From Chitinophaga vietnamensis (GTDB taxonomy: Bacteria > Bacteroidota > Bacteroidia > Chitinophagales > Chitinophagaceae): a stretch of DNA of 64,000 nt. Numbering within the stretch: position 1 is the stretch's first letter; the number at the start of each line of letters is the position of its first letter. Where the stretch lies: assembly GCF_902167635.1 (NCBI RefSeq), contig NZ_CABHMS010000007.1, positions 248,001 to 312,000 on the forward strand. The letters run 5' to 3'. The notes beneath the pieces were generated by a model. That model searched no databases. It was not told the origin of the DNA and saw nothing but the letters and a program-made list of their open reading frames with translations. This document shows, one piece after another, positions 1,323 to 57,173 of the stretch. The translations under genes and the position numbers were made by a program.

Positions 1323-2096
1323 ATGTTTTCCAAATTTGAACAATTCAAACACCTGCATACAGCGCCGGGGCTACTCGTATTACCCAACGCCTGGAATGCA
1401 AAGAGCGCACAGGTTTTCCAGGATGCCGGCGCTAAAGCCGTAGCCACTTCCAGCATGGCGGTAGCCAACAGTCTGGGCTATGACGACGGAGAAGCGATGT
1501 CCTTCGATGAATATCTTTTTATCGTCAAGAGGATATTATCCGCAGTAGATATTCCTGTATCGGTAGATATAGAGATGGGGTACGGCCATACGAAAGAGGA
1601 AATTTACGACCACATCGCTACGCTGGCACAATTGGGTGTGGCGGGTATCAACATCGAAGACTCACAGCTCAGTGATGGCGCCCGCAGCTTGCAAGCTGCC
1701 GAAACGTTTGCGGCCAATATCTCTTACATCAAAGAACAGCTCACAGCCGCGCAGCTGGCCATTTTCATCAATATCCGCTGCGATACTTATATTTTAAATG
1801 TAGATCATAAACAAGCTGCCACGCAGCAACGACTGGCGCTCTACGAACACACAGGCGCCGATGGTATTTTCCTGCCTTGTATTACAGCGCCGGAAGATAT
1901 CGCCGCCGCTGTAAAGGCCACCACGCTACCCCTGAATGTGATGTGCATTCCCGGCCTGCCCGATTTCCAGACCTTACAGCAACTGGGCGTGAAACGCGCC
2001 AGCGCCGGGCCTTTCCTCTTCAGCAAGGCAGCCGCACATACAGGTGAATTATATCAACAGATCCTCCGTGACAACAATTTTTCTTCCATCCTCTAA
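1323..2096 (+). CDS. Isocitrate lyase/PEP mutase family protein
   Basis: A 257-residue TIM-barrel enzyme of the isocitrate lyase/phosphoenolpyruvate mutase superfamily. Visible hallmarks are PNAWNAKSA near residue 21, VDIEMGYG at 81-88 (acidic metal ligands) and GINIEDS at 108-114, plus INIRCDTY further on. Family members cleave or rearrange C-C or C-P bonds of 2-oxo acids such as 2-methylisocitrate, oxaloacetate or phosphonopyruvate. The cysteine-containing KKCGH loop of true isocitrate lyases is absent, and I cannot assign a substrate. It is followed 11 bp later by an NTF2-fold gene in the same direction, so the two are probably co-transcribed. Confidence 0.85.
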   Translation: MFSKFEQFKHLHTAPGLLVLPNAWNAKSAQVFQDAGAKAVATSSMAVANSLGYDDGEAMSFDEYLFIVKRILSAVDIPVSVDIEMGYGHTKEEIYDHIATLAQLGVAGINIEDSQLSDGARSLQAAETFAANISYIKEQLTAAQLAIFINIRCDTYILNVDHKQAATQQRLALYEHTGADGIFLPCITAPEDIAAAVKATTLPLNVMCIPGLPDFQTLQQLGVKRASAGPFLFSKAAAHTGELYQQILRDNNFSSIL

Positions 2097-2107
2097 AACA
2101 ACATCAT

Positions 2108-2488
2108 ATGCAATTACCTACCAAAGCACAAGACGCGCATGCCGCACTAGCCGCCGCTTTCAACACCGGCGATGTAAACACCGTGATGAACATGTACGAT
2201 CTCAGTGGCATCATCGTACCCGAGCCAGGGAAGGCCGTTTCAGGCCAGGCGCAATTTGAAGCGGCCATCCGGTCCATCCTCTCCATCAAAGGCAAAATGG
2301 AGATCAAAACCGTATACTGCCTGCAAAGCGGCAATATCGCCGTAGGCAGGTCAGAATGGAACATCACCGATGGCAACGAAGTGAAAGTAAACGCCAAAGG
2401 CATTGAAGTGATGCGCCAGCAGGCAGACGGCACCTGGAAGATCGTGATCGATCATGCCTTCGGTGCAGAAAAGGATCTTATTGCTTAA
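2108..2488 (+). CDS. NTF2-like (DUF4440/SnoaL-type) small protein
   Basis: A 126-residue soluble protein with the cone-shaped NTF2-like fold pattern: an N-terminal helix (AHAALAAAFNTGDVNTVMNMYD), a valine/glycine-rich strand region, and a final WKIVIDHAF strand typical of DUF4440/YybH-type proteins. No catalytic residues can be assigned with confidence; such proteins range from isomerases to ligand binders. It closes a probable two-gene operon with the PEP mutase-like gene and is followed by a clear hairpin terminator. Confidence 0.75.
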   Translation: MQLPTKAQDAHAALAAAFNTGDVNTVMNMYDLSGIIVPEPGKAVSGQAQFEAAIRSILSIKGKMEIKTVYCLQSGNIAVGRSEWNITDGNEVKVNAKGIEVMRQQADGTWKIVIDHAFGAEKDLIA

Positions 2489-2512
2489 TCAGCATTTTGG
2501 TTGAAATAGAAA

Positions 2513-2543
2513 AACCCGGTTATCCAACCGGGTTATTTTTTTT
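2513..2543 (+). terminator. Intrinsic terminator
   Basis: AACCCGGTT (2513-2521) pairs perfectly with AACCGGGTT (2526-2534) over a 4-nt loop and is followed by a run of eight T. It ends the operon of the PEP mutase-like and NTF2-like genes. Confidence 0.85.
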
Positions 2544-2596
2544 CCTGATGTTGTCCTATTCTTTTGTTCCCGTTTGATATAAAAGAAAACATCATC

Positions 2597-3415
2597 ATGA
2601 AAACAAACATCCTGCTCCCTGAGCGCGTATTTGGCGAATCAGTCCGCTGGCATGAAGATCGCTGCTGGTTCTCCGACTGGGGCACACAAGAGATCATTGC
2701 AGTGGATCCGCAAGGCCGCAGCGAAACCATGGTACGCCTGCCTTTCCAGTCCTTTCCCTTCTGTTTCGACTGGCTCCCCGATGGCCGCCTGCTCATCACT
2801 TCCTCCAGCGATCAGCCACTGTTGCGCCAGGAAGCCGATGGGTCGTTTGTATCACATGCCGATGTGCAACACCTCTCCCCATTCGGCTGGAACGAGATCG
2901 TGACCGACAACAGAGGTTATGCCTACCTCAACTGTGTTGATTTTGATATGATGAACGGCGCGCCTTTCCAACCTGGCCACATCGCGGTGGTGGCGCCGGA
3001 TGGCAGCGCCCGGAAAGTGGCGGGCGACCTTTATTTCCCCAATGGGATGATCATCACATCCGACCATCAAACCCTCATTGTAGCGGAATCTTATGGCAAG
3101 CGGCTCAGCGCATTTGATATCGCAGCGGACGGCAGTTTACACAATCGCCGTATATGGGCCGATCTTGGCAACGGCGTGCCCGATGGCATCTGCGATGGCG
3201 GCGAACATACCATCTGGTATGCAGATGTGCCCAACAAAAGCTGCACCCGCGTGCGGGAAGGCGGCGAGGTAGTAGAAAGCATCACGCTGGACCAGGGTTG
3301 TTTCTCCTGCGCCAGCAATGGCCATCAGCTGTTTATGGCTACGATGGAATGGAAAGGGCCACAGCAGCTGTTCAGCGGGCCACGCACCGGCAATATTGTA
3401 ATGGCGGAATGGTGA
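2597..3415 (+). CDS. SMP-30/gluconolactonase family lactonase
   Basis: A 272-residue six-bladed beta-propeller of the SMP-30/gluconolaconase/LRE family, which hydrolyses sugar or other lactones using one divalent metal. The metal-site positions are recognisable: the Glu in FGESVRWHE near the N-terminus, Asn in FGWNEIVTD, Asn in YFPNGMII, and Asp in VPDGICDG. No signal peptide is seen, so it should be cytoplasmic. I prefer the start at 2597 over an upstream in-frame ATG because MKTNILLPERVFGES aligns with family N-termini. The downstream GNAT gene starts 44 bp after its stop. Confidence 0.88.
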   Translation: MKTNILLPERVFGESVRWHEDRCWFSDWGTQEIIAVDPQGRSETMVRLPFQSFPFCFDWLPDGRLLITSSSDQPLLRQEADGSFVSHADVQHLSPFGWNEIVTDNRGYAYLNCVDFDMMNGAPFQPGHIAVVAPDGSARKVAGDLYFPNGMIITSDHQTLIVAESYGKRLSAFDIAADGSLHNRRIWADLGNGVPDGICDGGEHTIWYADVPNKSCTRVREGGEVVESITLDQGCFSCASNGHQLFMATMEWKGPQQLFSGPRTGNIVMAEW

Positions 3416-3459
3416 TCTTTCAAAGATTGCGCGTAACTTCCGGGCTCAAAGGAACGTTT

Positions 3460-3963
3460 ATGCGCCACGTATTCAACACCGCCCGGCTTGCCCTGCAGCC
3501 ACTGACAAGCGGCGATGCGCCTTTCATCTACGAGCTGCTCAATACTGAAGGATGGAAGACTTTCATCGGCGACCGGCATATCCACACGCTGGATGATGCT
3601 GCCGCCTACATAGAAAAAATATTATCGAACCCGGACGTGACCTATGTGGTGGCCAGGCTGGCACAGGATCAGGAACCGGCGGGCATCGTCACGTTCATCA
3701 AACGGACCTACCTGCCATATCATGATATCGGCTTTGCCTTCCTGCCTGCCTATGCAGGCCAAGGCCTTGCCTATGAAGCGGCTGCCGCATTCCTGGAATT
3801 GATCCGGGCAGATGCCTCGCATAAAGAGGTGCTGGCTACCACCCTGCCCGGGAACAGCCGCTCTATACAATTACTGGAAAAACTGGGACTGTCGCTACAG
3901 GAAAAAATGATGCTGAACGGAGAAGAATTATTGTTGTTCCGCCTGGTATTAACACCGCAATAA
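3460..3963 (+). CDS. GNAT family N-acetyltransferase
   Basis: A 167-residue acetyltransferase of the RimJ/RimL-like branch, which transfers acetyl from acetyl-CoA to an amine. The start MRHVFNTARLALQPL is typical of that branch, the centre has GFAFLPAYAGQGLAYEAA (motif A, Q/R-x-x-G-x-A pyrophosphate loop), and NSRSIQLLEKLGL near the end is motif B. The frame stays open far upstream into the SMP-30 gene, but that extension is out-of-frame coding of another gene, so the ATG at 3460 is preferred. The substrate is not inferable. Confidence 0.88.
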   Translation: MRHVFNTARLALQPLTSGDAPFIYELLNTEGWKTFIGDRHIHTLDDAAAYIEKILSNPDVTYVVARLAQDQEPAGIVTFIKRTYLPYHDIGFAFLPAYAGQGLAYEAAAAFLELIRADASHKEVLATTLPGNSRSIQLLEKLGLSLQEKMMLNGEELLLFRLVLTPQ

Positions 3964-41686: not shown

Positions 41687-42448
41687 TTAGTTCCTTAAAA
41701 AGCGGATCAATGCTGCCGGATGATCTGTCTGCATCCCTGCTACGCCTTCCGCCAGGGCTTGCCGCCATTGCGGCGGGCCTTCATCTTTCGACTGCACATC
41801 CAGCCATACCGCTACGCCGCGCTGTTTGCACAAGGCCAGCATCTCCTTTGTATATTGTCCACGCGAGCCGTCTATCGCCGATACCGGGAACTGATCGAGG
41901 AAACCCGCCAGCGATGCGGCATCCCGCACAGTATCCGGCACGCTGCACATCAGCGGCATAGTGGGCGCTACTTCCCGCCATTGCCACAATTGCGCTTCTG
42001 CATTAGCATATACCACTACCCGTTTTTCCATTTTAAATTCCTTTATCAACTTGTACGCTGCCACAACATCGGCCTCTTTAAAATCAAGATAGATATTCAC
42101 TTTCTGCCGGCATAAACGTAGCACATCACGGAAGCCAGGTATCTGGCCCTTTTGGCAAAGCTGCGCCCATGAGCTGCTGCGGATGTCCATCCCATGCCAT
42201 TGTTCGCCATGAGAGATCACCAGCTGGCTGTCGGCCGTCATGCGCAGGTCTGTTTCTATGTAATCCGCGCCCAGCCTGATGGCGCTGGCATAAGCAGCTA
42301 AAGTATTTTCCGGCAATGTAACATGATCGCCCCGGTGCGCAATCACCACCGGATGATGCGCAGCCGGCGGCAAGGGTGGTCGTACGGGCATCTGCAGGCC
42401 TAACAAAAAAATCAGGAATGATAGCATAGCGCTTATTTTAAATACCAC
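41687..42448 (-). CDS. Exported glycerophosphodiester phosphodiesterase
   Basis: A 253-residue exported GDPD (signal peptide about 1-23) with a TIM barrel. The catalytic residues are visible in VIAHRGDHVTLPENTLAAY (His, Arg, Glu) and YIETDLRMTADSQLVISHGE (Glu, Asp, His). It splits glycerophosphodiesters into glycerol-3-phosphate and an alcohol. The start overlaps the SusD-like stop by 16 bp, so it is translationally coupled to the SusC/D locus. Confidence 0.92.
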   Translation of the reverse strand: MVFKISAMLSFLIFLLGLQMPVRPPLPPAAHHPVVIAHRGDHVTLPENTLAAYASAIRLGADYIETDLRMTADSQLVISHGEQWHGMDIRSSSWAQLCQKGQIPGFRDVLRLCRQKVNIYLDFKEADVVAAYKLIKEFKMEKRVVVYANAEAQLWQWREVAPTMPLMCSVPDTVRDAASLAGFLDQFPVSAIDGSRGQYTKEMLALCKQRGVAVWLDVQSKDEGPPQWRQALAEGVAGMQTDHPAALIRFLRN

Positions 42449-43899
42449 ATGAGCGTTGTAATGGCATCGGCTCCCTGCCGCGCCACGGCGGCGGTGTACT
42501 GATCCAGGTTATAAGACTGCTCCGCAGATGGATAGATATACCTGCTGGGAATGCTGCTCACCGCGGCCAGCGGCCCGGTCACAAACACCGGGTAACCTGT
42601 ACGGCGATGATCAAACCAACCCTCCGCCCCTTTCAGGAAACCAGCGATCCATTTCTGCGTGATCAGCTGCGACAACGTACCATTGTATTGCACAGCTGCC
42701 TGCAACTGGTAATCGCTGGCTGCCTTCCCGGTGATGCCATAATAAGCAAGCGAAGCGCTGATACCTTTGTTATACAGGGTGGCAGCGGTTTCGCCGGGCA
42801 CGGTCACTTTCCCTGCCTGCGCTGCTTCTGCTAAAATGAAGCACTGTTCCGCATAAGTGATCAAAGCAGCTTTCAACAGATCATTGCTATTCTGGTAAAA
42901 AATATCTGCGAGCAAAGAAATATGTTCTTCTCCGCCATTATAATCATAAGGAGAACGGATGGCATTGGGCACACCTACATAAGGATGCGGATCTACCGTA
43001 TAACCTGCAGGTTTGGCCACTGGCGCCACCCACACGGCCAGGCGCGGGTCGTTGAGGCGCAGCAGCGTATCAACGATCTCCTTGCTCGGTTTATATTTAT
43101 TGATCTCCGTTGCGGAATTGTTCAGGTTACCGCCTGGCCAGGCATTGTTTTTACTAATACCCAGGTATTTCAATTCAGCATTATCTGCATTACCTGCCAG
43201 CAGCGGATACTTGTCTGGATGATCCAGTATATTTTGCATCTCCGTATAGGCGTTACCGTAATGTTTTGCTGCACGCAGCAGCAAACGCAAACGCAGCGCA
43301 TTCGCGAAGCGCCGCCACTTGATAGCACTGCCACCATAAAGGATGTCGTAGCCAGGATCGATCGCCTGGGTATTGGAGGCCAGTGTATCATTGGCGGCTG
43401 CCAGCGTTTGCAACAGGGAGGGATAGATAGTTTCTTGTTTATCGTATACCGGGTGCACGATATTGCTGTCTTTCGATAACAACGCCGCGGAGTAAGGAAT
43501 ATCGCCGTAGAGATCTGTGATATAGGCAAAGTTGAACACCTTCAGTATATCGGAGATAGCGGTATACTGATGCATGTTGTTAAGAGCGGCGAGGTCGTGA
43601 AATGTTTTATTGATGCTAAGGGTATTATAATAAGTATCCCAGCTATCGGCGGACCAGCCAAACAAGTCCACGCCTTCATTGCGCACCTTGGTAATATAGC
43701 GTGCCGCTTCTGCGGGCTTGTCCAGAAAGGCGTCGTCCTGGTAGGGATAAGCGGTTTGCACTAAAGTGGTAGACAAAAGGTACTGCGGGCTCACCGTAGT
43801 AGCGTTATTGGGATTGGTATTGATGTCGCCGAACTGTTTGGTACAGGCGCCGAAGAGGAACATTGATCCCAGCAGCAGCGATGAATATATCTTTCTCAT
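42433..43899 (-). CDS. SusD/RagB-like nutrient-binding lipoprotein (SusD-like_2)
   Basis: A 488-residue surface lipoprotein (Cys19 in LFGACTKQ). The start FGDINTNPNNATTVSPQYLL and the tetratricopeptide-like helical build match the SusD-like_2 group. It forms the lid of the SusC channel and selects the ligand. It lies 18 bp after SusC and overlaps the phosphodiesterase start, making it part of one operon. Confidence 0.93.
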   Translation of the reverse strand: MRKIYSSLLLGSMFLFGACTKQFGDINTNPNNATTVSPQYLLSTTLVQTAYPYQDDAFLDKPAEAARYITKVRNEGVDLFGWSADSWDTYYNTLSINKTFHDLAALNNMHQYTAISDILKVFNFAYITDLYGDIPYSAALLSKDSNIVHPVYDKQETIYPSLLQTLAAANDTLASNTQAIDPGYDILYGGSAIKWRRFANALRLRLLLRAAKHYGNAYTEMQNILDHPDKYPLLAGNADNAELKYLGISKNNAWPGGNLNNSATEINKYKPSKEIVDTLLRLNDPRLAVWVAPVAKPAGYTVDPHPYVGVPNAIRSPYDYNGGEEHISLLADIFYQNSNDLLKAALITYAEQCFILAEAAQAGKVTVPGETAATLYNKGISASLAYYGITGKAASDYQLQAAVQYNGTLSQLITQKWIAGFLKGAEGWFDHRRTGYPVFVTGPLAAVSSIPSRYIYPSAEQSYNLDQYTAAVARQGADAITTLMWYLK

Positions 43900-43917
43900 A
43901 ATGATCGCAGATGATGA

Positions 43918-46900
43918 TTAAAAATTAAGACCCAGTTTAACTCCATATGATCGTGTATAGGGCAATGACCAGCTGGAAGTACCCGGCGTAATGCCGCCAC
44001 TGCTGATGGTCATGGCGGTTTCAGGATCATAGCCTTGCCCCGCCGCGGTCCAGCTGAAAAGGTTGCGGGCAATGAAGGCGATAGACAGATTGGAAACGGG
44101 CAGGCGGCCGGTTTGCGCCTTGCTGAACAGGTAGCTAAGACTTAGCTCGCGCAGCTTTACATAAGTGGCGCTGAAAGTATTGCGGGAATGCATTTTCCAG
44201 TAGTAGTCGCCGTAATAACTTTCCGGATCGGTGATGTTGGTATTTTTCACATAGCCGCCGTTGCCGTCAGACACATAACCATCTTCGATCATGCCATCGG
44301 TACGGTTGCTGCTGCCATCGTTCCAGCTCAGGCCCCCGTGTTGTGGATCGCGGCCCTGAAGCGTATTGGTGGTGCGGCCGTCCGACAAGAGGTTCATATA
44401 CATGTAAGAGAAGAACTGCCCGCCCATGCGCCAGTCGATGAGCATGTTGAGTGTCCAGTGCTGATACGTGAAAGTGTTGCTGAATCCCAGCATGAAATCG
44501 GGATTGTAATTGCCGATCTTCACTTTGTCGGTGGCGTATTGCGAATGCCCTGTGTTGTCGAGTAATTCTTTTCCTTTAAAAGGCCCGTCGGGCACGGTTT
44601 TCCAGGTAACGCCCCACATATCTCCGAGTTGTTGTCCTTCGCGTATCTGGTAGTCGATCCCTTCGGCATTGCCTTGCAGGTATTGTGTGATACCTTCAGA
44701 TAATTTGATCACTTTGTTGCGGTTGCGGGTGAAATTGATGCCGGTTTCCCAGATAAATTTCCCGGCTACCGGTGTGCCGTTCAGGCTGATCTCCCATCCC
44801 CTGTTGCGGATTTCGCCGGCGTTGATGATCTTGCCATTATAGCCGGAAGCCATGGTGGTAGGCGTTTGTATGATCTGGTTACGGCTGTTGGTAGTATACC
44901 AGGTAGCATCCAGTCCGAGGCGGCCATGGAAGAACTTCAGTTCTGTTCCCACTTCATAAGAGGTAGCGATCTCCGGTTTCAGGTTGTTATTTTTAAGCAT
45001 CTTGCTGAAGTCGGCCATCTTCACATTACCCCAATCCGGCGAGCTGAAATAAAAATTGTTATACAGGCTGTAAGGGTCTGTATCCTTGCCCACTTTCGAC
45101 CAGTTGAGGCGCAGCTTGGCGTACGACAGCGCCGCATTGTTGAGATGCAGCATATCCGACAGTATCAGGCTGAGAGAAGCCGAAGGATAGAAATAAGCAT
45201 TGTTACCTGCCGGCAAGGTGCTGGACCAGTCATTCCTGGCAGTGAGATCGAGGAAAGCATAACTGCGGAAAGCGATCTCGCCCATGCTGTACAAGCTGTT
45301 GATCCTTTTGCGGGAACGGAAAGAATTGTTGGCCACCGTGCCTGCGGCGGCATTGGAGATGTTATACACACCCGGCATCACCAATTGCCCGGCTGATTGC
45401 GACTCGCTGTTATAGCGCTGGTCCATGCGGTTGCCGCCGCCAGAGATAAAGAAAGACCAGTCTTTATTGATCTCGCGTTTGTAGGTCAACAGGAAATCTG
45501 TGTTCTGTTCACTGTTGAAGAGGTCACCGATATAATAGCCGCCATAGGGATTTTTCACGGCGCTGAAAGCGCGTTTGCTTTCATCTGTTTCAGAGAACAT
45601 ATCCAGGCCGCTGCGGCCCATCAGGGTGAGGCCTTTCGCCAGTTCCATCGTTAACTGAACATTGCCGGTGAGGTGGTTGCGATTATATCCGTTGGTGAGC
45701 TGATAGGCAACGAAATAAGGATTATCCGTACTGCCCTGATCCTGTGAAAACTGCTGTAGTCCGTCTTTCCCGGCCATCCAGTAATTTTTCAGCAACTGTG
45801 AATTGATGTTGGCCGGCATGGTATACAGGATATACGCAGAGCTGCCACGGTTGAACGTTGGCCGGTTATCACTTTTATTATTCGTATAGCCGACATTGGT
45901 AGTTACTTTTATTTTCCTGCTCAGTTCATAACCGGCAGAAAGGTTGATGGTATTGCGTTGCAGGTCGGTATTAGGCGTGATACCGGTATTCCGCAGGTTG
46001 GTATACGATAGCCGGAAATTGCTGCCGGTAACCGCTACGTTGCTGGTATAAGTGGAACCTGTCTGGAAAAAATCTTTCACACGATTGGGATAGGCTACCC
46101 AATCGGTGGCGATAAGGTTGCCGCTGGCGTCCCGCGGGCTGTTCCACTGAATATGTTTGGCGCCCTGATCCAGGCGCGGGCCCCAGGAAGAGGTAGATAA
46201 AGTATTGGTAGGATCAGTAGAACCAGTGGCATCTCCTGCGCCAAATTCATTTTGAAAATCGGGGAACTGCCAGGCTTTATCGAATATCGCGGAGAAGTTG
46301 ACATTTACGTTGAGGCCTTTCCGTGCCTTACCCGCGCCGGTTTTGGTAACGATCAATATCACGCCGTTGGCGGCGCGGCTGCCGTAGAGGGCCGCAGCGC
46401 TGGCGCCTTTCAGCACGGTGATGCTGGCGATATCATCCGGGTTGATATCTGAAACAGGACTGCCGTAATCAACGGTCACCTGCCCTACCGGCTGCGAAGG
46501 CGATCTGTTGGCCGATGCTACCGGCACACCATCTACTACAAACAGCGGGCGGTTATTATTAGCGATGGAAGATGAACCACGGATCGTTACCAACACAGAA
46601 GCGCCAGGATCAGAGCTGGCCGCCCTGATATCCACGCCCGCTACTTTGCCGGAAAGTGAATTGAGCACGTTCACATCCTTCACGGTATTGACTTTCGAGC
46701 CATCCATGGTGGCGATGGAATAGCCCAATGCTTTTTCTTCCCGCTTGATGCCCAAAGCTGTTACCACTACGGCCGATAGCTCTTTGGTATTGGTCACCAT
46801 TTGCACATTGAGCAAGTCCTTGTCATCTACTTTTACTTCTTTACTGAAATAGCCGATAGAGCGGAATACAAGTGTGCTGGTATGCGCATCGGTTTCTATC

Positions 46901-47349
46901 ACATAGCGTCCTTGTTCATCAGATATGACACTCTTGCCAGATGCAGGATCGGAGATCGTCGCGCCAGGCACCGGTTCTCCTTTTTCGTTGCGAATAGTAC
47001 CGCTGATGGTGTGGCGGTCCGGAGTGTTCGCCTGCTTTGCGGCGGCAGGTATGCGACGTACGGCATAGTCGGTGCTGCTGAGTTGCTCCAGCATCAGGCC
47101 CAAAGGCCGTAACAGGTGATTGACGCGCGCGGCGTCGAAACTGCCGGAAACAGGCAACTGCTCTTGCAGTATATATTTATCTGCAATGGCTGCACTGCTG
47201 TAATTAAAGTTGACATGAAAAGTGTTTTGCAGTTGCTGCAAAGCGGTGATCAGTTTGATCGGATCTTCACCGGGATGTGCCTGTCCGCGCCAAGGTATAG
47301 ACAATAGGAGCATGATCAGGACGAAGTACCTGTTCAGTTGTTGTTTCAT
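43918..47349 (-). CDS. SusC/RagA-type TonB-dependent transporter with STN domain
   Basis: A 1143-residue outer-membrane transporter. Order: signal peptide (ending RGQA), STN domain (about 30-100), CarboxypepD-regulatory-like domain (about 112-200, ISGTIRNEKGEPVPGATIS), plug (GKVAGVDIRAASSDPGAS and LFVVDGVPVA), and a barrel ending in GVKLGLNF. The STN domain signals through FecR when the ligand binds. It is preceded by a FecR gene and an ECF sigma gene, the standard TonB-FecR-sigma cascade. Confidence 0.95.
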   Translation of the reverse strand: MKQQLNRYFVLIMLLLSIPWRGQAHPGEDPIKLITALQQLQNTFHVNFNYSSAAIADKYILQEQLPVSGSFDAARVNHLLRPLGLMLEQLSSTDYAVRRIPAAAKQANTPDRHTISGTIRNEKGEPVPGATISDPASGKSVISDEQGRYVIETDAHTSTLVFRSIGYFSKEVKVDDKDLLNVQMVTNTKELSAVVVTALGIKREEKALGYSIATMDGSKVNTVKDVNVLNSLSGKVAGVDIRAASSDPGASVLVTIRGSSSIANNNRPLFVVDGVPVASANRSPSQPVGQVTVDYGSPVSDINPDDIASITVLKGASAAALYGSRAANGVILIVTKTGAGKARKGLNVNVNFSAIFDKAWQFPDFQNEFGAGDATGSTDPTNTLSTSSWGPRLDQGAKHIQWNSPRDASGNLIATDWVAYPNRVKDFFQTGSTYTSNVAVTGSNFRLSYTNLRNTGITPNTDLQRNTINLSAGYELSRKIKVTTNVGYTNNKSDNRPTFNRGSSAYILYTMPANINSQLLKNYWMAGKDGLQQFSQDQGSTDNPYFVAYQLTNGYNRNHLTGNVQLTMELAKGLTLMGRSGLDMFSETDESKRAFSAVKNPYGGYYIGDLFNSEQNTDFLLTYKREINKDWSFFISGGGNRMDQRYNSESQSAGQLVMPGVYNISNAAAGTVANNSFRSRKRINSLYSMGEIAFRSYAFLDLTARNDWSSTLPAGNNAYFYPSASLSLILSDMLHLNNAALSYAKLRLNWSKVGKDTDPYSLYNNFYFSSPDWGNVKMADFSKMLKNNNLKPEIATSYEVGTELKFFHGRLGLDATWYTTNSRNQIIQTPTTMASGYNGKIINAGEIRNRGWEISLNGTPVAGKFIWETGINFTRNRNKVIKLSEGITQYLQGNAEGIDYQIREGQQLGDMWGVTWKTVPDGPFKGKELLDNTGHSQYATDKVKIGNYNPDFMLGFSNTFTYQHWTLNMLIDWRMGGQFFSYMYMNLLSDGRTTNTLQGRDPQHGGLSWNDGSSNRTDGMIEDGYVSDGNGGYVKNTNITDPESYYGDYYWKMHSRNTFSATYVKLRELSLSYLFSKAQTGRLPVSNLSIAFIARNLFSWTAAGQGYDPETAMTISSGGITPGTSSWSLPYTRSYGVKLGLNF

Positions 47350-47372
47350 AAAAAATTTAAAGTGATATGATA

Positions 47373-48230
47373 CTATTGGAAAGTAATCGTTTGGCCTTCC
47401 TGCACTACGGTTCCTTTATCGAATACGGCACGGATGGCAGCCAGCAGCATGGGCAGCTTATCCGCCGGCACGGAACCGGTGAAGCGTTCCTGTTGCAGCG
47501 CGGTGTTTTTCCACCTGACCTGGTAACCATAATTATCTGCAATCACCTGCGCCACCTGTTGCAATGGAATGTTGTTGAATACGAGGCGACCATTCTTAGG
47601 CGTGATAACGCCTGCGAGGTGCAATGCTTTCAGTCGTTTGTCTGTAACATCCAGCTGTACTGCTTCTCCGGGCAATAGCCGGTAGCTTCCTCCGCCATCA
47701 GCCCATCCGGTGGCGGCGGCGGTCACCTTCCCTTCTTCCAGCCTTACCTCTATATGCTTCCTGCGATTGTAAACATTAAAAGCGGTGCCCATCACCTTTA
47801 CATCAAGACCGCCGGTATGCACTACAAATTTCGGGTGGAAGCCGGCAGGCTTTTTCGTGACCTTAAAAAATGCTTCCCCATCCAGCCATACAGCCCGTTC
47901 TTTCCAGGAGAGCCACCAGCTGCTGTAACGCAGGGTGGAATTAGCATTGAGCGTAACGATAGAACCATCTGGCAGCCTGACTATTTTCGTACTGGCGTAA
48001 CCGTTAACAATGGTGGTGCTGCGGGTTGCCAGCAAGTAAAAAGTGGCGGCCAGCACCAGCAGTACCGAAGCGGCTATAGCGGCCCTGCGCACCCAAAGCT
48101 GTATCAGCTTCCCTCTCAGCCTGCCGTCTATCTGACGTTTCACCGCCTCGATCTCATCGGCTGATAATGCGGTTTCCTGTGCACGTAGGCCAGCCAGTAT
48201 GTTTGTTATCTTTTGTGTTTGATTGTCCAT
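47373..48230 (-). CDS. FecR-family anti-sigma regulator
   Basis: A 285-residue inner-membrane regulator: N-terminal cytoplasmic DUF4880-like part, one helix near residues 47-67 (AIAASVLLVLAATFYLLA), then the FecR domain (IVRLPDGSIVTLNANSTLRY, VWLDGEAFFKV) and a DUF4974 domain at the end (NNIPLQQVAQVIADNYG). It relays the SusC signal to the upstream ECF sigma. The ATG at 48230 is preferred over one 6 bp earlier. Confidence 0.92.
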   Translation of the reverse strand: MDNQTQKITNILAGLRAQETALSADEIEAVKRQIDGRLRGKLIQLWVRRAAIAASVLLVLAATFYLLATRSTTIVNGYASTKIVRLPDGSIVTLNANSTLRYSSWWLSWKERAVWLDGEAFFKVTKKPAGFHPKFVVHTGGLDVKVMGTAFNVYNRRKHIEVRLEEGKVTAAATGWADGGGSYRLLPGEAVQLDVTDKRLKALHLAGVITPKNGRLVFNNIPLQQVAQVIADNYGYQVRWKNTALQQERFTGSVPADKLPMLLAAIRAVFDKGTVVQEGQTITFQ

Positions 48231-48298
48231 CGTCATCTATAAGAGGAAAGGATGATGAAAAATACCCTCAGGAAAATGAAAGTTTTTTTAAAAAAAAT

Positions 48299-48901
48299 TC
48301 AGCTTTCCAGTAATCCGGAGAGTTGCTGGTTGCCGGCAAAGGCCTCACGCATCTCCGCGAGCGCCCGGTATATCAGCGTGCGGGCGTATTTCACTTCTTT
48401 CATCGACATGATATCAGCGATGCCATCATAGCCGATGTTCTCAAAAAAATACAGGTATACGGCCTCTCTTTGCCGGTTGCTGAGCTGATTGATCACTTGT
48501 TGTACTACCAGTTGCAGGTGACTATCCTGTTGTTTATGGATCAGGGGATGATCGGCGGAGAGCTCCAAATGGAAATCATAGGCATCTTCTTCTTCCAGGT
48601 TCAGCGTAGAACGAACCTTTTGCTGCCGGAGGGTTTTCAATAATTTTCTTCTGGCGGATACAAAGAGATAACTCTTCAGCTGCCGGATATTTCCACGGCG
48701 GGAACTTTGGGTAAATAGCTCGATAAAAAAATCCTGCAATACATCTTTAATCAGGTCTCTGTCGGCCGTAAACTTGCTGCAATACTGGAACAGTAAAGGA
48801 AAGTAGGTGTAGTACAAGCTATCAAATGCTTCCTTGTTTCCTTTGCAAAATCGCTCCCAGAGCCGGGATTCATCTTCCTGTTCTACGGCCGTTTTATTCA
48901 T
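48299..48901 (-). CDS. ECF sigma-70 factor
   Basis: A 200-residue ECF sigma factor: region 2 (DESRLWERFCKGNKEAFDSLYYTYFPLLFQYCSKF, split by the linker DLIKDVLQDFFIELF) and region 4 near the end (INQLSNRQREAVYLYFFENIGYDGIADIM). It directs RNA polymerase to the SusC/D operon when FecR is activated. The first ATG is 30 bp upstream; the start at 48901 is preferred because sequence before it lacks coding character. Confidence 0.92.
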   Translation of the reverse strand: MNKTAVEQEDESRLWERFCKGNKEAFDSLYYTYFPLLFQYCSKFTADRDLIKDVLQDFFIELFTQSSRRGNIRQLKSYLFVSARRKLLKTLRQQKVRSTLNLEEEDAYDFHLELSADHPLIHKQQDSHLQLVVQQVINQLSNRQREAVYLYFFENIGYDGIADIMSMKEVKYARTLIYRALAEMREAFAGNQQLSGLLES

Positions 48902-48987
48902 ATATGCAGATTTGGCACAGCGCAACCGCAAAGCTATCGGATTATCCCTCGGGAGTATATTAAGTTTGTGTTATCGGCTCGCAAAGG

Positions 48988-49062: not shown

Positions 49063-51843
49063 TTAATGTACATAGGGCAGTTGAAACGCCGGCCCTGCCG
49101 TGGTGCCGTCATTCCTGCCTGATGGCGTTTGCATCAGCACGCGCGCCTGTACGCTCAGGGAGTACATAGCGCCGATGGCTTCATTGAGATTATCGGGATT
49201 ACCATTGAAGGTATCGTGCAGCGCGTTGAGCATCTTCTGATAACTGCGGGCAAACTCGTTGGATAATATCTGTGCACGGGAGCCATCGGGATAGCCTACC
49301 GGTTGCGGATCATCCACCATCGGGTATACGCCATTGGGATCAAAAGGTATCGGGTCGCCGGTATAAGTGTAGGTGTTGCCGGCAGGCACCAGTTTGCGGC
49401 CAGCCACGATCTCCGCAAATTTATAATAATGCGCCAGCTCGCCCTGACCCGTTTGCGGGTCCATGTTCGCCATCCCTTCACCCTGGTCTACAATTTCGCT
49501 GATGGCATTCTGCGCATCTGCCAAAGACTTGATCACATACAGTTGTCCTGTCATGCCGCTCCAGTTGGATACCTGCTTGTCGGCATTTCCGAACGAGATC
49601 CTGCCGGCGCCGGAGAGGTCCTGCAAGGCTTGCAACACCTGGCTGTAAAACCAGCCGATGGTATAAGTAGTGGTTTGCTGTGCGGCGAAAGACGGTCGCA
49701 TGGCCTTCAAACGCTGGATGGTAGTACCTTCCGGCTCTTCGATAGACATGAAGCAATCGCGTATCTGATCGATAGAGCAGCGGCGCAGTCTAACGGTGAG
49801 GCCTGTACGTAAACCACCGGGCAAGCCGCCGGGATACCTCGGGATGAAATTGGGATGCCGCAGGTCGGGAGCGCCGCCGATGGAGATCAGGATATTGGAG
49901 GCCAGTGCCATGTGCAGCATCTCTTCCACTACCACGCTGCGTATGAGGCCGGCCACTTCTGCATTGCAGCCCGGCATAATACTGTATAAGGCGCAGAGAT
50001 AAGGCGGAATAGTGGAATGCTCCAGCTCTACGGCCAGTTGCAGGGCTTTCTTCAACCCCTCCACCGAATTGAAATTCAGGTAGGCGGGTTCATCTGCCTT
50101 GAGCCATTTTTGTATCATCGCCAGTTTGCTGCCGGAAAGGTCGCGCGTTACCGGCATATAGTTCGGACTGGTGATGGGCGTATTGAATACGTTCCGCAGG
50201 ATATTGAGGCGTTCCATCACGCTGCCATAATCGGAGAGATCGACGATCGGTTTCATCACGGGATAGAGGTCGGCATATTGCTGGAAGATGGGTTGTATAT
50301 CATCCACCCAGGTAGGCGCATCAGGTATGGGCGATTGCGTGAACACGTGCATATTCAGCAACTGGTTGCCGTTGGTAACGCCCGGTGGCGGCGGAGTATC
50401 GCCCAGTTGATAGGATACGCAATACAATTGGCCATCGATATATCCTCTCGGGTTGCCGGGGTCGGTAGCAGTGATGCTCAATGTAGCCGTACCATTCTGA
50501 TCGGTCTTTAGCTGGAGTTTATCGATCGTTACTTTATTATACAGCAACACATCGGGCGTGCCTACCGGGTGCGGACCGGCCAGGGGCCCTTGTTTGATCT
50601 GTCCTACCAGCAGCGTGGGATCATAGGCACAAGTGATCGCTTTATTTGCCAGTGGCTGACCAAATTTTGTAGCATAGAACTTTGTTGTTTGCGCCGCCGC
50701 ACCAGGATCGATGCGGAACACAAAATGATCGGCCCGGAGGTAAGTGCCATCGGGGCTTTCACTCAGCAAAGGCAGGAGCATGCCGGAATTGGGATCGGTG
50801 CCATATACCGCCAGCGGATTGGCGGCTACCAGCGCGGCATTATCAGCAGAGAGAGGTATGGAGATCACGCCTGCGGTAGTTTTATACCAATCGCAATCCT
50901 GGTATCTTAGTTCTCCCAATATCACTTTATCTTTTCCGGCGGGCGTTACCCACAGCTGGATATCGCCGATATCTTTCAATGGGCCGCCAACAGCGGTGGT
51001 GCCAAGACTATTGCCCATATCTATCTGTAATACTTTATTATTATTACTGTCCGTATCCACTACACAATAGGCTGTATTGAGCGTGTAAGGCGCACCGGGT
51101 GCGGGATTCAGCTGACGGCCAGCTACAAAGAAATCAGGATCTCCCGCTATTTGTTTGCCTATCGTACCGCAGATACGCCCCAGTGTGAAATTGGCCTGCG
51201 AATGATCTACTTCAAAACCGTCCAGGTTGAATTTGATGCTGAAAGTCTGGCTGTCTGTCTTGGTATCCATCATCGTTGTAGACGCCAGCTCAGTAAGGAA
51301 GCGGGAACTGATCGTGTTCTTCCCTTGTGTGATGCTGTTATTCCATGCAGACGTAGTGAGGATGCTCTGGTAGAACGCGCCCCAGCATGTATCGCTCGGA
51401 AAGGTTTTGGGATAACGTGGCCAGATATCACCAAAAGGAGCGGCCAGGAAATCGCTTCTGAAGCCGATCTGCGTGGCGTCGCCCACTACTACCTGGAAGC
51501 CCCATATCTCCGATACCATCTGGTTTTCCGGATCGAGGTCTACGATCTTGCCTTCTGCGCGGCCGTCAGCGCCGGTTACCGGCATACCGATGATAGGATC
51601 GATGGCGGGATCGTCACACCAGGTGCCATCACGGTAATACACTCTTTGCACCGTGCATCCGTACAGTCGCCAGGCGCCGCTGCCGCCGGGGTTCCACCAG
51701 CCATTGGAAGGCCCTTCGCCATAAAGCTGGAAGCTCGTCTGGAAAGTGTTGGTGTTAAAATGATAAGGGTCGTTATTGACCGTAGAAGGATCTGCCTGGA
51801 ACTGACCAGAGAATTCTAAACGAGGGAATTGTAAATAACTCAT
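49063..51843 (-). CDS. VioB-like protein with ferritin-like domain
   Basis: A 926-residue protein I recognise as VioB-like (iminophenyl-pyruvate dimer synthase family). The start (FPRLEFSGQFQADPST) and a beta-rich N-terminal 560 residues are followed by VTRDLSGSKLAMIQKWL and, at about 597-810, a ferritin-like domain: AVELEHSTIPPYLCALYSI (Glu near 606), EEMLHMAL near 640, EIVDQGEG and ELAHYYKF near 783-805 offer Glu and His iron ligands. VioB couples indole-pyruvate imine dimers. No tryptophan oxidase or other violacein gene is nearby, so the reaction here is open. No signal peptide. Confidence 0.85.
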   Translation of the reverse strand: MSYLQFPRLEFSGQFQADPSTVNNDPYHFNTNTFQTSFQLYGEGPSNGWWNPGGSGAWRLYGCTVQRVYYRDGTWCDDPAIDPIIGMPVTGADGRAEGKIVDLDPENQMVSEIWGFQVVVGDATQIGFRSDFLAAPFGDIWPRYPKTFPSDTCWGAFYQSILTTSAWNNSITQGKNTISSRFLTELASTTMMDTKTDSQTFSIKFNLDGFEVDHSQANFTLGRICGTIGKQIAGDPDFFVAGRQLNPAPGAPYTLNTAYCVVDTDSNNNKVLQIDMGNSLGTTAVGGPLKDIGDIQLWVTPAGKDKVILGELRYQDCDWYKTTAGVISIPLSADNAALVAANPLAVYGTDPNSGMLLPLLSESPDGTYLRADHFVFRIDPGAAAQTTKFYATKFGQPLANKAITCAYDPTLLVGQIKQGPLAGPHPVGTPDVLLYNKVTIDKLQLKTDQNGTATLSITATDPGNPRGYIDGQLYCVSYQLGDTPPPPGVTNGNQLLNMHVFTQSPIPDAPTWVDDIQPIFQQYADLYPVMKPIVDLSDYGSVMERLNILRNVFNTPITSPNYMPVTRDLSGSKLAMIQKWLKADEPAYLNFNSVEGLKKALQLAVELEHSTIPPYLCALYSIMPGCNAEVAGLIRSVVVEEMLHMALASNILISIGGAPDLRHPNFIPRYPGGLPGGLRTGLTVRLRRCSIDQIRDCFMSIEEPEGTTIQRLKAMRPSFAAQQTTTYTIGWFYSQVLQALQDLSGAGRISFGNADKQVSNWSGMTGQLYVIKSLADAQNAISEIVDQGEGMANMDPQTGQGELAHYYKFAEIVAGRKLVPAGNTYTYTGDPIPFDPNGVYPMVDDPQPVGYPDGSRAQILSNEFARSYQKMLNALHDTFNGNPDNLNEAIGAMYSLSVQARVLMQTPSGRNDGTTAGPAFQLPYVH

Positions 51844-52052
51844 ACGATAATGGTTAGATTTATACGGAGGTGAATAAATGAGAGGGAGCTGAAAGCGCCT
51901 GGCGGCGCCGCATTCAAGGGTTTATCATAGTATAAATGGTTATTTTGAGATTTTGCTCTTACAAGGTAATGGATATTTTTGAAATAATTAGTAGTCCTGC
52001 CTTTAAAAAAATATCGTACATTCATTGTACCCTCATCAATAACTATTATCCC

Positions 52053-53435
52053 ATGAAAAACAAAACACTATTGACTGCTACCCTCGCAGTCGCCTCTTGC
52101 ATCATCATCCTGAGCAGATGCAATACCAGCCAGCCAAAGCAGGCGCGCTTCGAATTTACAGACATACAAATGGACCCTTTCCAGGATCACCGCGACAGCA
52201 TCCCGCCGAAGTCGGTGTATAATGGTCCGCTCTTCACATTGAACCATCATTATCCTGCTTCAGCAACGCCGTTCACCAATACGCCCTGGCAGCAAGCGTT
52301 GGGCGGCAAGCCCATCTCCGCTGCCAATGCCCTCAAATATGTGGAGGCATTGAAAGCATACGTAGCGCCGGCTATTGTCAAGTTCCTGTATCAGCACAAT
52401 AACTGGAATGCGGCCGCTGAAGGCTGGTACCAGGAACCCTGGACCGGCAGCCGCCGCGAAGCCATCTGGGGCAGCTATCTCGGCACCCGCTTCGATTCCG
52501 GCACTTTTGCCGGCTTGAAGAAATTCATGAGAACCTATGTACTAACCATGTACGATAAAACAGCGGCGGCCACCCTGGGCAAGATATGGGGCCAAACTGC
52601 TGAAAGACCATTGCTGGAAGATAAAAGCAATAGCCAGTTTACAGAAGGCAGCGTGATCGTGAAGTTCGCCTTTTCCACTGCCAATGCCAAGGATTGGGAC
52701 GACATGCAAAATGCGCTCACCATATCGGTGTACGATACCGCCGTTGCATTCAAGGATCCGCATTACCAGCTGCGGCAACTCAGCTTTTTCCAGATGGATA
52801 TCATTGTGAAAGATAGCGCCACCTCGCCTAAAACAGGATGGGTGTTCTCTACCCTGGTGTATGATAAAAATGCGCCTGGCAAAACTGCCTGGGACAAGAT
52901 GGTGCCTCTTGGCGCACAGTGGGGCAATGATCCCGACGTCAACAGTACTGCCAATCCGGGCGCGCCTCTACAGGAAACTGTGATCAACCCGGCAGCGCCT
53001 AAATACAGTACCGCCACATTAGGCTGGGGTGGCCGCATCAGCGGCCCTAACGATGCTGCCGTAATCCCCAGCGCCGTTACCGTCAAAGGGGTATATTACA
53101 AAAACCTCGCTGCCTCTTCGTGTATGAGCTGCCATAGTTCAGCACAATACCTGATGCTGAGCAATCTTCTGCCCGGGCCCATCAAAGGGAATAAAGGAGA
53201 TACTTTCAAAGTATTCACACCCGGTGGAACTGAATGGAGAAGATGGTTTCAGGACAATGCCGGCACTACGCCTTTCGATAAATTGAAAGGACAAGTGGCG
53301 CTCGACTATGATATGGTCACCGCTTTCAAATCCATACCTGCCTGGGAAGCATCCATTAAGGGCAAAACGCAGCAAACGATCGACGAGATAGAACACTACC
53401 GCATGCGGCCCGAGAAACAGTATAACGGAAGATGA
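52053..53435 (+). CDS. Mono-haem c-type cytochrome lipoprotein
   Basis: A 460-residue lipoprotein (Cys22 in ILSRCNTS) with one haem c site CMSCH near 356-360. The rest of the protein is a large domain without family resemblance to me. It has repeated WxxP-like turns, and GWVFSTLVYDK and LGWGGRISGP are patterned segments. It is divergent from the VioB-like gene with about 210 bp between, which suggests co-regulation and a possible electron-transfer role for it (inference). The first in-frame ATG lies further upstream, but only this start gives a signal peptide. Confidence 0.75.
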   Translation: MKNKTLLTATLAVASCIIILSRCNTSQPKQARFEFTDIQMDPFQDHRDSIPPKSVYNGPLFTLNHHYPASATPFTNTPWQQALGGKPISAANALKYVEALKAYVAPAIVKFLYQHNNWNAAAEGWYQEPWTGSRREAIWGSYLGTRFDSGTFAGLKKFMRTYVLTMYDKTAAATLGKIWGQTAERPLLEDKSNSQFTEGSVIVKFAFSTANAKDWDDMQNALTISVYDTAVAFKDPHYQLRQLSFFQMDIIVKDSATSPKTGWVFSTLVYDKNAPGKTAWDKMVPLGAQWGNDPDVNSTANPGAPLQETVINPAAPKYSTATLGWGGRISGPNDAAVIPSAVTVKGVYYKNLAASSCMSCHSSAQYLMLSNLLPGPIKGNKGDTFKVFTPGGTEWRRWFQDNAGTTPFDKLKGQVALDYDMVTAFKSIPAWEASIKGKTQQTIDEIEHYRMRPEKQYNGR

Positions 53436-55628: not shown

Positions 55629-57173
55629 TCATTGGTCCGCCAAAGTAGCGGCCTTCGCATCCACTACTCCATAGCCGTATTTATCGCTCTTGTTCAGGTA
55701 GAGGCTTCCGGCCTTATCCATCCTGGCCAATATCTGATCCCTGGTGTCCGCAGGGTACCTGCTCCATACCAGGGCCGCGATGCCTGCACAGGTGGAAGTA
55801 GCCACAGAAGAGCCGCCTACCGTGGAAGGCACATCGCCGCTCATCGCCAGCGATAAAGGATGTTTGCCATCGCTGCTTCTTTCCATCACTACTACAAAGC
55901 GCACCTGTGTGCCGGTATGACAGGCATCGCAGCGGTCCTGCAAATTATCTTTGATACCGGTTACTGCTACCACTTCATTCATATATGCCGGGAATACCAC
56001 GCCGATGCCCAATGCGTTGGCGATTTCCGCGACGAGATAGGTAGAAGTGCCTGCAGCGCAGAAGATCAGCTTGCCTTTATTGCGGGCATAGATAACTGCA
56101 TCCTTGATCTTTCCACTTTCGAAGGGCGTGCCCATGCTCATGCTAACGATCTTTACCGTCGAGTCGTCGCCGGCCATGGTAAAGGCATCTGATACGCCTT
56201 GTATTTCATCATTACCGCTGATGAACACATCATCGGTGGCGTGTACGGTCATGAGGCTTGCGTTGTAGGCCACGCCGGTGCTGGCGCTGTCTGTTCCCCT
56301 GGGAGCGGCGCAAACGCTGGCCATTTCGGTGCCATGTCCGCAAGCGTCATTAGGTGTGGCATTGGGACGGGTTACTTTTTTCTCGATGGTCCTGTTACCG
56401 GAAGCGCCCTGGTTGAAGGCGCTGCCGAGGTTATCCTGCTGATCGCTCACGCCGGTATCGATGATCATCACTTTCACGCCGCTGCCGGTGGTTTTAGCCC
56501 ACGCCTCATCGATCTTGTGATAGGCATAATTCCAGGACTGCCGGGCGCCGGGGAAGATGCCTTTGTACATATTGGTGTTCAGGATGCCTGTTTCGCCATT
56601 GTTATTGCCGCAGCCGGAGGCAGTATTGATATCGATGTTCTCTGTTCTGGGAGAGGCATCAGGGTTCATCACGTCGCCGTACCCGCCTGGTTCTGCATAG
56701 CGTACCAGCGCCGATGCCCGCAATGCCTTGATGGTAGCCGCTTTGGTAACTTTCACATCTATCACGGGCAACCTGTTTTCGTTATACGCGATCCTGACAG
56801 TTGAGACCTGCTCGTATGCCTCCACCAGCCTGATGATGGCGGCCTTTGCATCTTTCCATTCAGCGCTGTTGATATCGATCAGGTGTAGCTTGCTGTCGAG
56901 ATCCCGGAAGCCCGCAGGCTGGTAGCCGATCGTGAGAATAGAATCGCTGTATAACAGCGCGCTGCGCAGCATGCCGGGCGTGGCGGCAGCCCAGTTGAAA
57001 CGTCCTTTGCTTTTCAGTTCTTCTGCTACAAAATGGTTGATCGCTTGTTTGCTTACAAGCGCCGTATCTGTGGCGCTTTCGCCAGGGATGGGCGTCAGCG
57101 GCTTTTCCGCTTTATTACAGGCAAACAGGCAGCATAGCGCGCTGCCGAGTACAGTGAGGTGAACTTTTTTCAT
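55629..57173 (-). CDS. Subtilisin-like serine protease lipoprotein (S8)
   Basis: A 514-residue exported lipoprotein (Cys19 in LFACNKA). The S8 triad is visible: Asp in MIIDTGVSD near 237, His in GHGTEMAS near 280, and Ser in GGSSVATST near 454. The first 200 residues are a propeptide-like domain; the central part has inserted loops (NDACGHG, CDACHTG) with extra cysteines. A cell-surface or secreted endopeptidase. It is divergent from nothing and stands alone between the AraC gene and the terpene synthase operon. Confidence 0.93.
   Translation of the reverse strand: MKKVHLTVLGSALCCLFACNKAEKPLTPIPGESATDTALVSKQAINHFVAEELKSKGRFNWAAATPGMLRSALLYSDSILTIGYQPAGFRDLDSKLHLIDINSAEWKDAKAAIIRLVEAYEQVSTVRIAYNENRLPVIDVKVTKAATIKALRASALVRYAEPGGYGDVMNPDASPRTENIDINTASGCGNNNGETGILNTNMYKGIFPGARQSWNYAYHKIDEAWAKTTGSGVKVMIIDTGVSDQQDNLGSAFNQGASGNRTIEKKVTRPNATPNDACGHGTEMASVCAAPRGTDSASTGVAYNASLMTVHATDDVFISGNDEIQGVSDAFTMAGDDSTVKIVSMSMGTPFESGKIKDAVIYARNKGKLIFCAAGTSTYLVAEIANALGIGVVFPAYMNEVVAVTGIKDNLQDRCDACHTGTQVRFVVVMERSSDGKHPLSLAMSGDVPSTVGGSSVATSTCAGIAALVWSRYPADTRDQILARMDKAGSLYLNKSDKYGYGVVDAKAATLADQ

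Follow-up and report, generated by a model that had tools for sequence, protein, structure and literature searches.

The 64,000 nucleotides of Chitinophaga vietnamensis analysed here (RefSeq assembly GCF_902167635.1, contig NZ_CABHMS010000007.1, forward-strand positions 248,001 to 312,000; henceforth the window, numbered from its first letter) hold two divergent genes. One codes for a 926-residue protein, a fused VioB-type polypeptide made of an N-terminal module and a ferritin-like module of family PF12902 (49063..51843, minus strand; the enzyme in what follows). The other codes for an exported protein with a single haem site (52053..53435, plus strand; the cytochrome). As judged from its sequence, the enzyme is a member of a known family, and it takes part in a modestly interesting family-wide pattern. 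We lean towards the view that it is a cytosolic, iron-dependent oxidase tailoring a small molecule derived from an amino acid. The cytochrome probably lies beside it by chance and belongs to a different cell compartment, and the pairing itself probably does not matter. An earlier note on this DNA had described the two divergent open reading frames (ORFs) just as we find them.

The match to PF12902 spans residues 601-813 of the enzyme (49405..50043, minus strand; 4.6e-58, 197 bits against a cut-off of 22.3) and holds the candidate iron ligands discussed below. It follows an N-terminal module of residues 1-574 (50122..51843, minus strand), which includes a TRDLSGSK segment (residues 566-573), matches no Pfam family above cut-off and forms a separate gene in split relatives. 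Six orthologues, 50-64% identical, were found in Chitinophaga, and the seven fused proteins, that of the window included, make up one clade (support 100/99). A pattern search of genome contigs returned three stretches, one of them a relative (L002); 67 stretches from viral contigs contained no relative. The fused loci considered here are the window and six others (L002, L064-L068), each examined over some 19-20 kb. An N-terminal export signal is found in none of the seven fused proteins (maximum mean hydropathy at most 0.69). The window and L002 share short-chain dehydrogenase/reductase and AraC neighbours, a likeness that was rejected as synteny: the dehydrogenases have 36% identity, and the similarity of the AraC proteins is confined to a short stretch.

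Six residues form the core of the argument. E608, E641, H644, E702, E789 and H805 are identical in 31/31 C-terminal modules (C-modules) drawn from four partner classes, the window included, which is the conserved set of four Glu and two His expected of a ferritin-like diiron carboxylate protein, and which we take to be of the ferritin type. The same positions are invariant in 17 full-length sequences, that is eight single-gene proteins, counting that of B. barranii (L101), and nine split pairs. A search of the PDB with the family profile recovered 3hl1 (5.6e-28), with Glu or His aligned at all six ligand positions, then the bacterioferritins 9viw (2.6e-9) and 1nf4 (2.7e-5, first helix pair only). 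The ferritin-like protein 3hl1, assigned to Caulobacter in an excerpt of a 2021 review (PMC9705886), has a domain homologous to the C-terminal one of the enzyme; unlike the enzyme, it counts 317 residues and lacks the N-terminal module. From this conservation we infer a diiron centre. Glu/His ligands had been proposed in the earlier note, which named their variation among homologues as an observation that would count against its reading; no such variation was seen in the 31 sequences.

The relationship with VioB has to be weighed next. VioB, an iminophenyl-pyruvate dimer synthase, joins tryptophan-derived units in the making of violacein, a purple pigment; the group it forms with RebD and StaD dimerises indole-pyruvate imine and has an amino-acid oxidase as partner. 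The NCBIfam equivalog model for this enzyme, TIGR04492, has 1003 positions and a cut-off of 1250 bits; the enzyme scores 9.2 bits (E 0.22), which is not significant, although TIGR04492 is its sole NCBIfam match at E up to 1 and the stretch concerned is co-linear (residues 561-622 on model positions 559-631). At the same level the model is matched by all seven fused members, the best at 6.7e-5, and at E up to 0.001 by 7/24 C-modules, a set that does not include the C-module of the window. Run over 395 Bacteroidota genomes, the profile gave two weak matches and none above cut-off. By these measures, the enzyme is a distant relative of VioB and not VioB itself. The two share a C-terminal module of the same family placed behind a long N-terminal one, and they differ in that the enzyme falls far below the equivalog cut-off, lies outside any violacein locus and has no amine-oxidase gene in the scanned ORFs nearby. 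That scan, of ten ORFs between 42433 and 59387 with both genes of the pair included and 43918-47349 outside it, found no match to the amine-oxidase family. The earlier note was right to place the gene outside a violacein locus (the relatives, too, have other partner genes) and to see no amino-acid oxidase alongside in the ORFs scanned; its 'full VioB-type layout' survives as a distant co-linear similarity and fails as a significant match to VioB. A literature search in one collection found no paper joining VioB-like proteins or iminophenyl-pyruvate dimer synthases with Chitinophaga or with a ferritin-like protein. According to the excerpt of the 2021 review, VioB had no available structure, its best template being 3hl1 at 19.85% identity (PMC9705886), and our own profile searches of the PDB found no VioB structure.

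Could the enzyme nevertheless be a true iminophenyl-pyruvate dimer synthase, with products of the chromopyrrolate type and an unlinked tryptophan oxidase? The short stretch co-linear with VioB and five amine-oxidase matches (PF01593) elsewhere in the genome speak for it, but besides the 9.2 bits there is the fact that none of these five lies on the contig of the window (C7), and that LodA_N (PF17990), seen in 10/79 Chitinophaga genomes, has no match in this one, with a model that may miss a distant LodA-like class. We hold this to be very unlikely. The same low standing befits the idea of a ferritin that stores or detoxifies iron without catalysis: the fold family would suit it, and both the large N-terminal module and the biosynthetic neighbours found in some relatives argue against it.

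These relatives come in several arrangements. The PF12902 plasmid records listed were 40 of 166, 60 of 169 and 60 of 174 in three listings, and among the matches listed, eight records have a single place that spans 80% or more of the query. In all eight each module is annotated as a gene of its own, and five of these places were inspected more closely; the hosts of such split pairs are Azospirillum, Mycetohabitans, Aureibacter and Gloeothece. Separate ORFs are also found in Chitinophaga (L069-L072). Across nine aligned pairs of an N-module gene and a ferritin-like gene, both modules resemble the enzyme end to end with 36-41% identity, the difference being two genes instead of one and, in some, adjoining ebo or nonribosomal peptide synthetase (NRPS) genes. 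N-modules that no ferritin-like gene directly adjoins also occur, at 1899-3902 in the Gloeothece locus L088 and in L007, where about 1.5 kb downstream is visible. The PF12902 protein of B. barranii (L101) has a different N-terminus, with relatives annotated as YCF48-related, and for this reason it enters the ligand tally without being counted as a VioB-type fusion.

The neighbours of these genes vary. An NRPS gene lies 94 bp upstream of the fused gene of L068, on the same strand (L068:40-10555), and another is one gene away from that of L067, on the opposite strand; the split pair of L072 is preceded by an NRPS gene and then by a CmlA-type diiron hydroxylase (L072:1043-10573). In the genome studied here, contig C2 holds every one of the 25 condensation-domain matches and C7 none; they form a large NRPS region of about 85 kb (C2:420077-504332). 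Genes of the ebo cluster adjoin the split pairs of L085 and L086 (Aureibacter and Mycetohabitans), and in the Gloeothece locus L088 a split pair is adjoined by genes for TatD and 3-dehydroquinate synthase. As a specific partner the ebo cluster was rejected, since an EboE homologue is present in 79/79 Chitinophaga genomes (here on contig C1), making it uninformative within the genus. Many stand-alone C-module loci have a GMC oxidoreductase as partner, identified by clustering in L073-L077, L082, L083, L089, L090 and L120-L122 (checked with Pfam in L073 and L089) and by annotation in L094 and L124. A row made of a small gene, the GMC oxidoreductase and the PF12902 gene recurs on rhizobial and Methylorubrum plasmids (L094:9310-12441, L089:3983-7125, L124:4933-8053).

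In Chitinophaga itself, 13 loci (L103-L114, L119) carry, by clustering, a set of four genes coding for a PF12902 protein of about 500 residues, a LodA-like protein of about 790, a radical-SAM/SPASM protein and a halogenase-like flavoprotein. The families were checked in L103 and L104, where the LodA match is weak (22.7 bits against a cut-off of 25); the radical-SAM protein has as its best NCBIfam match, below cut-off, a quinohemoprotein amine dehydrogenase maturation protein. By its gene content, the set resembles a quinoprotein accompanied by genes for its maturation. PF12902 genes adjoining lodA/lodB-like genes are also described in fungi, in an excerpt of a 2015 paper (PMC4417212). The likeness lies in the same Pfam domain and an oxidase neighbourhood; the difference is a fungal host and a LodA partner, with no PF17990 match in the present genome.

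A tentative mechanism can be drawn from these elements. A ferritin-type four-helix core would hold two irons, through E608 on helix 1, E641 and H644 on helix 2, E702 in the IEEPE loop, E789 in QGEG and H805 in AHYY. O2 or H2O2 activated at this site would withdraw electrons from a substrate (an imine, an enamine or an amine) that the N-terminal module helps to hold. The substrate would be supplied by a partner encoded elsewhere in the genome, the neighbours in relatives being NRPS/CmlA, a GMC oxidase or a LodA-like quinoprotein, and the divergent cytochrome would be an exported protein that came to adjoin the enzyme gene in this genome.

Several observations weigh against an iron-dependent tailoring oxidase. 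AlphaFold models of the whole enzyme and its C-module, computed with two sequences each, were unusable (pLDDT, the model's own per-residue confidence, 28.2 and 34.4), and because both predictions failed, the iron site is drawn from conservation. The partner genes are candidates by neighbourhood; NRPS genes are close in 2/7 fused loci, the window being among the seven, and no partner is conserved around the clade of the window. Finally, an excerpt of the review reports haem b and catalase activity for VioB, not a diiron centre (PMC9705886). It might follow that the enzyme is a haem b protein like VioB and RebD, its Glu/His residues being structural or binding a helper metal, and the TIGR04492 matches of all seven fused members go in the same direction. 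Yet the only invariant His of the seven fused Chitinophaga proteins are H609, H644 and H805, all inside the ferritin core (H609 varies in the other partner classes), and the set of four Glu and two His persists in proteins whose neighbours are unrelated. A haem b enzyme seems to us rather unlikely.

We now turn to the cytochrome. Its ORF is called from 51936 (499 residues), but the start is most likely at 52053 (MKNKTLL...), since the relatives in the alignment begin there; this gives a protein of 460 residues and an intergenic gap of 209 bp. The single haem site announced in the earlier note is there: the ORF has exactly one CxxCH, CMSCH (53121..53135, plus strand), and 17/17 aligned members keep both its Cys and its His. 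In all 17 the N-terminus is hydrophobic as well, with a maximum mean hydropathy between 1.97 and 3.21, so that the export signal and the CxxCH motif of a c-type cytochrome are found together throughout. Neither Pfam, NCBIfam nor the PDB gave a match to its sequence, and a PDB search with the family profile gave one row at chance level. That the protein is a lipoprotein, as the earlier note had it, is plausible from this N-terminus and from a Cys kept there in at least 90% of the relatives; the residue before this Cys is Arg in the window cytochrome, presumably atypical of a lipobox. In the divergent intergenic region (51844..52052) there is one TANNTTTG match, at 51974-51981 on the plus strand, some 70 bp upstream of where the cytochrome begins, and no sigma-70-like or terminator-like site is listed inside it. 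Because sigma-70, terminator and TANNTTTG counts are within the range of shuffled sequence, the match is no evidence of a promoter.

Attachment of c-type haem takes place outside the cytosol. Because the cytochromes carry an export signal (17/17), the fused enzymes none (0/7), and haem of this type is attached outside, electrons are unlikely to pass directly between enzyme and cytochrome, except if some unseen route exports the enzyme. The competing view, that the cytochrome is the redox partner of the enzyme and divergent transcription means co-regulation, has for itself the adjacency seen in the window. Over the other six fused loci, however, neither the cytochrome nor any CxxCH protein was seen nearby, and apart from the window 2/48 PF12902-anchored loci (L088, L089) carry either cytochrome subfamily. 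In 79 genomes of the genus, PF12902 is present in 37, the cytochrome in 15 and both in nine, against 7.0 expected (p 0.20). A sample of 195 genomes of the family has the enzyme query in nine and the cytochrome in eight; both are present in this genome and in G079, where they occupy separate contigs. Among 345 Bacteroidota, PF12902 is found in ten and the cytochrome in four at the thresholds used, both again in this genome and in one other (G464, different contigs). On several plasmids with both genes, among the matches listed, tens of kb or more separate cytochrome and PF12902.

To be sure, some results favour the pairing. Genomes with the fused type carry a cytochrome homologue anywhere in 4/6 cases, against 1.1 expected (p 0.011); keeping strong homologues only gives 3/6 (p 0.053), and leaving out this genome 3/5 (p 0.038), with p values that are uncorrected and ignore kinship. 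One of the four homologues is weak (31% identity, G223), and in G227 about 1.27 Mb separates the enzyme gene from the cytochrome gene, while in G252 they lie on separate contigs. Furthermore, three distant lineages have related single-haem proteins in the vicinity of PF12902-type genes. In Rhizobium sp. NZLR1 and R. johnstonii, one row runs from a homologue of the window cytochrome through a small gene and a GMC oxidase to the PF12902 gene, and the coordinates on a second R. johnstonii plasmid agree. In B. barranii, a cytochrome of a second subfamily is the next gene to the PF12902 protein, beside a protein matching LodA_N, a case (L101) chosen after its coordinates had been seen. In Gloeothece, a member of that subfamily adjoins an N-module gene, some 6 kb from the ferritin-like gene of the split pair. 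An hhalign comparison finds these subfamilies to be related, with E 1.9e-7 over 160 columns. Taken together, we consider a redox partnership improbable. The electron partner acting on a surface-exposed substrate, as the earlier note had suggested, loses its ground with the differing compartments and with the six fused loci, the absence of adjacency in relatives being what that note itself had set against the link; in the genus, the nine co-occurrences against 7.0 expected give p 0.20. What remains of its proposal is a reaction different from that of VioB, in line with the failed equivalog test and the other partners of the relatives, and without the cytochrome.

The cytochrome belongs to an exported mono-haem superfamily met beside varied plasmid gene sets (L088, L089, L092-L102), whose scanned members had no Pfam or NCBIfam match, one being annotated as cytochrome P460 family. 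Because such cytochromes also adjoin genes for tyrosinase, molybdopterin-binding protein, amidohydrolases, siderophores and others, they seem to accompany diverse gene sets in general. A bolder proposal would make PF12902 proteins modular cytosolic diiron oxidases, reused with NRPS/CmlA, GMC, LodA-like/radical-SAM or ebo export systems, and coupled in several lineages across the membrane, through product export, to an uncatalogued, exported mono-haem family of the SSCxSCH type that finishes the oxidation, the window being one such two-compartment pathway. An analogue would be the periplasmic ScyE, which is believed to complete scytonemin once ebo-dependent export has taken place. We give this proposal little credence.

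Around the pair, two neighbouring terpene synthase genes (PF19086; 57403-59387, minus strand) lie close by, with a subtilase gene at 55629-57173 near them. Downstream of the enzyme, genes for a sigma factor, a FecR and a SusD-like protein stand in a row (42433-48931, minus strand), among them an ORF of 1143 residues that, judged by eye, resembles a TonB-type receptor.

In general, the range of neighbours, from NRPS and ebo genes to GMC and LodA-like oxidases, points to tailoring enzymes for uncharacterised Chitinophaga metabolites. That six Glu and His residues never vary in 31 sequences, despite the change of neighbouring oxidase, makes a testable prediction of an iron site for the family, and one that perhaps extends to VioB-type enzymes.

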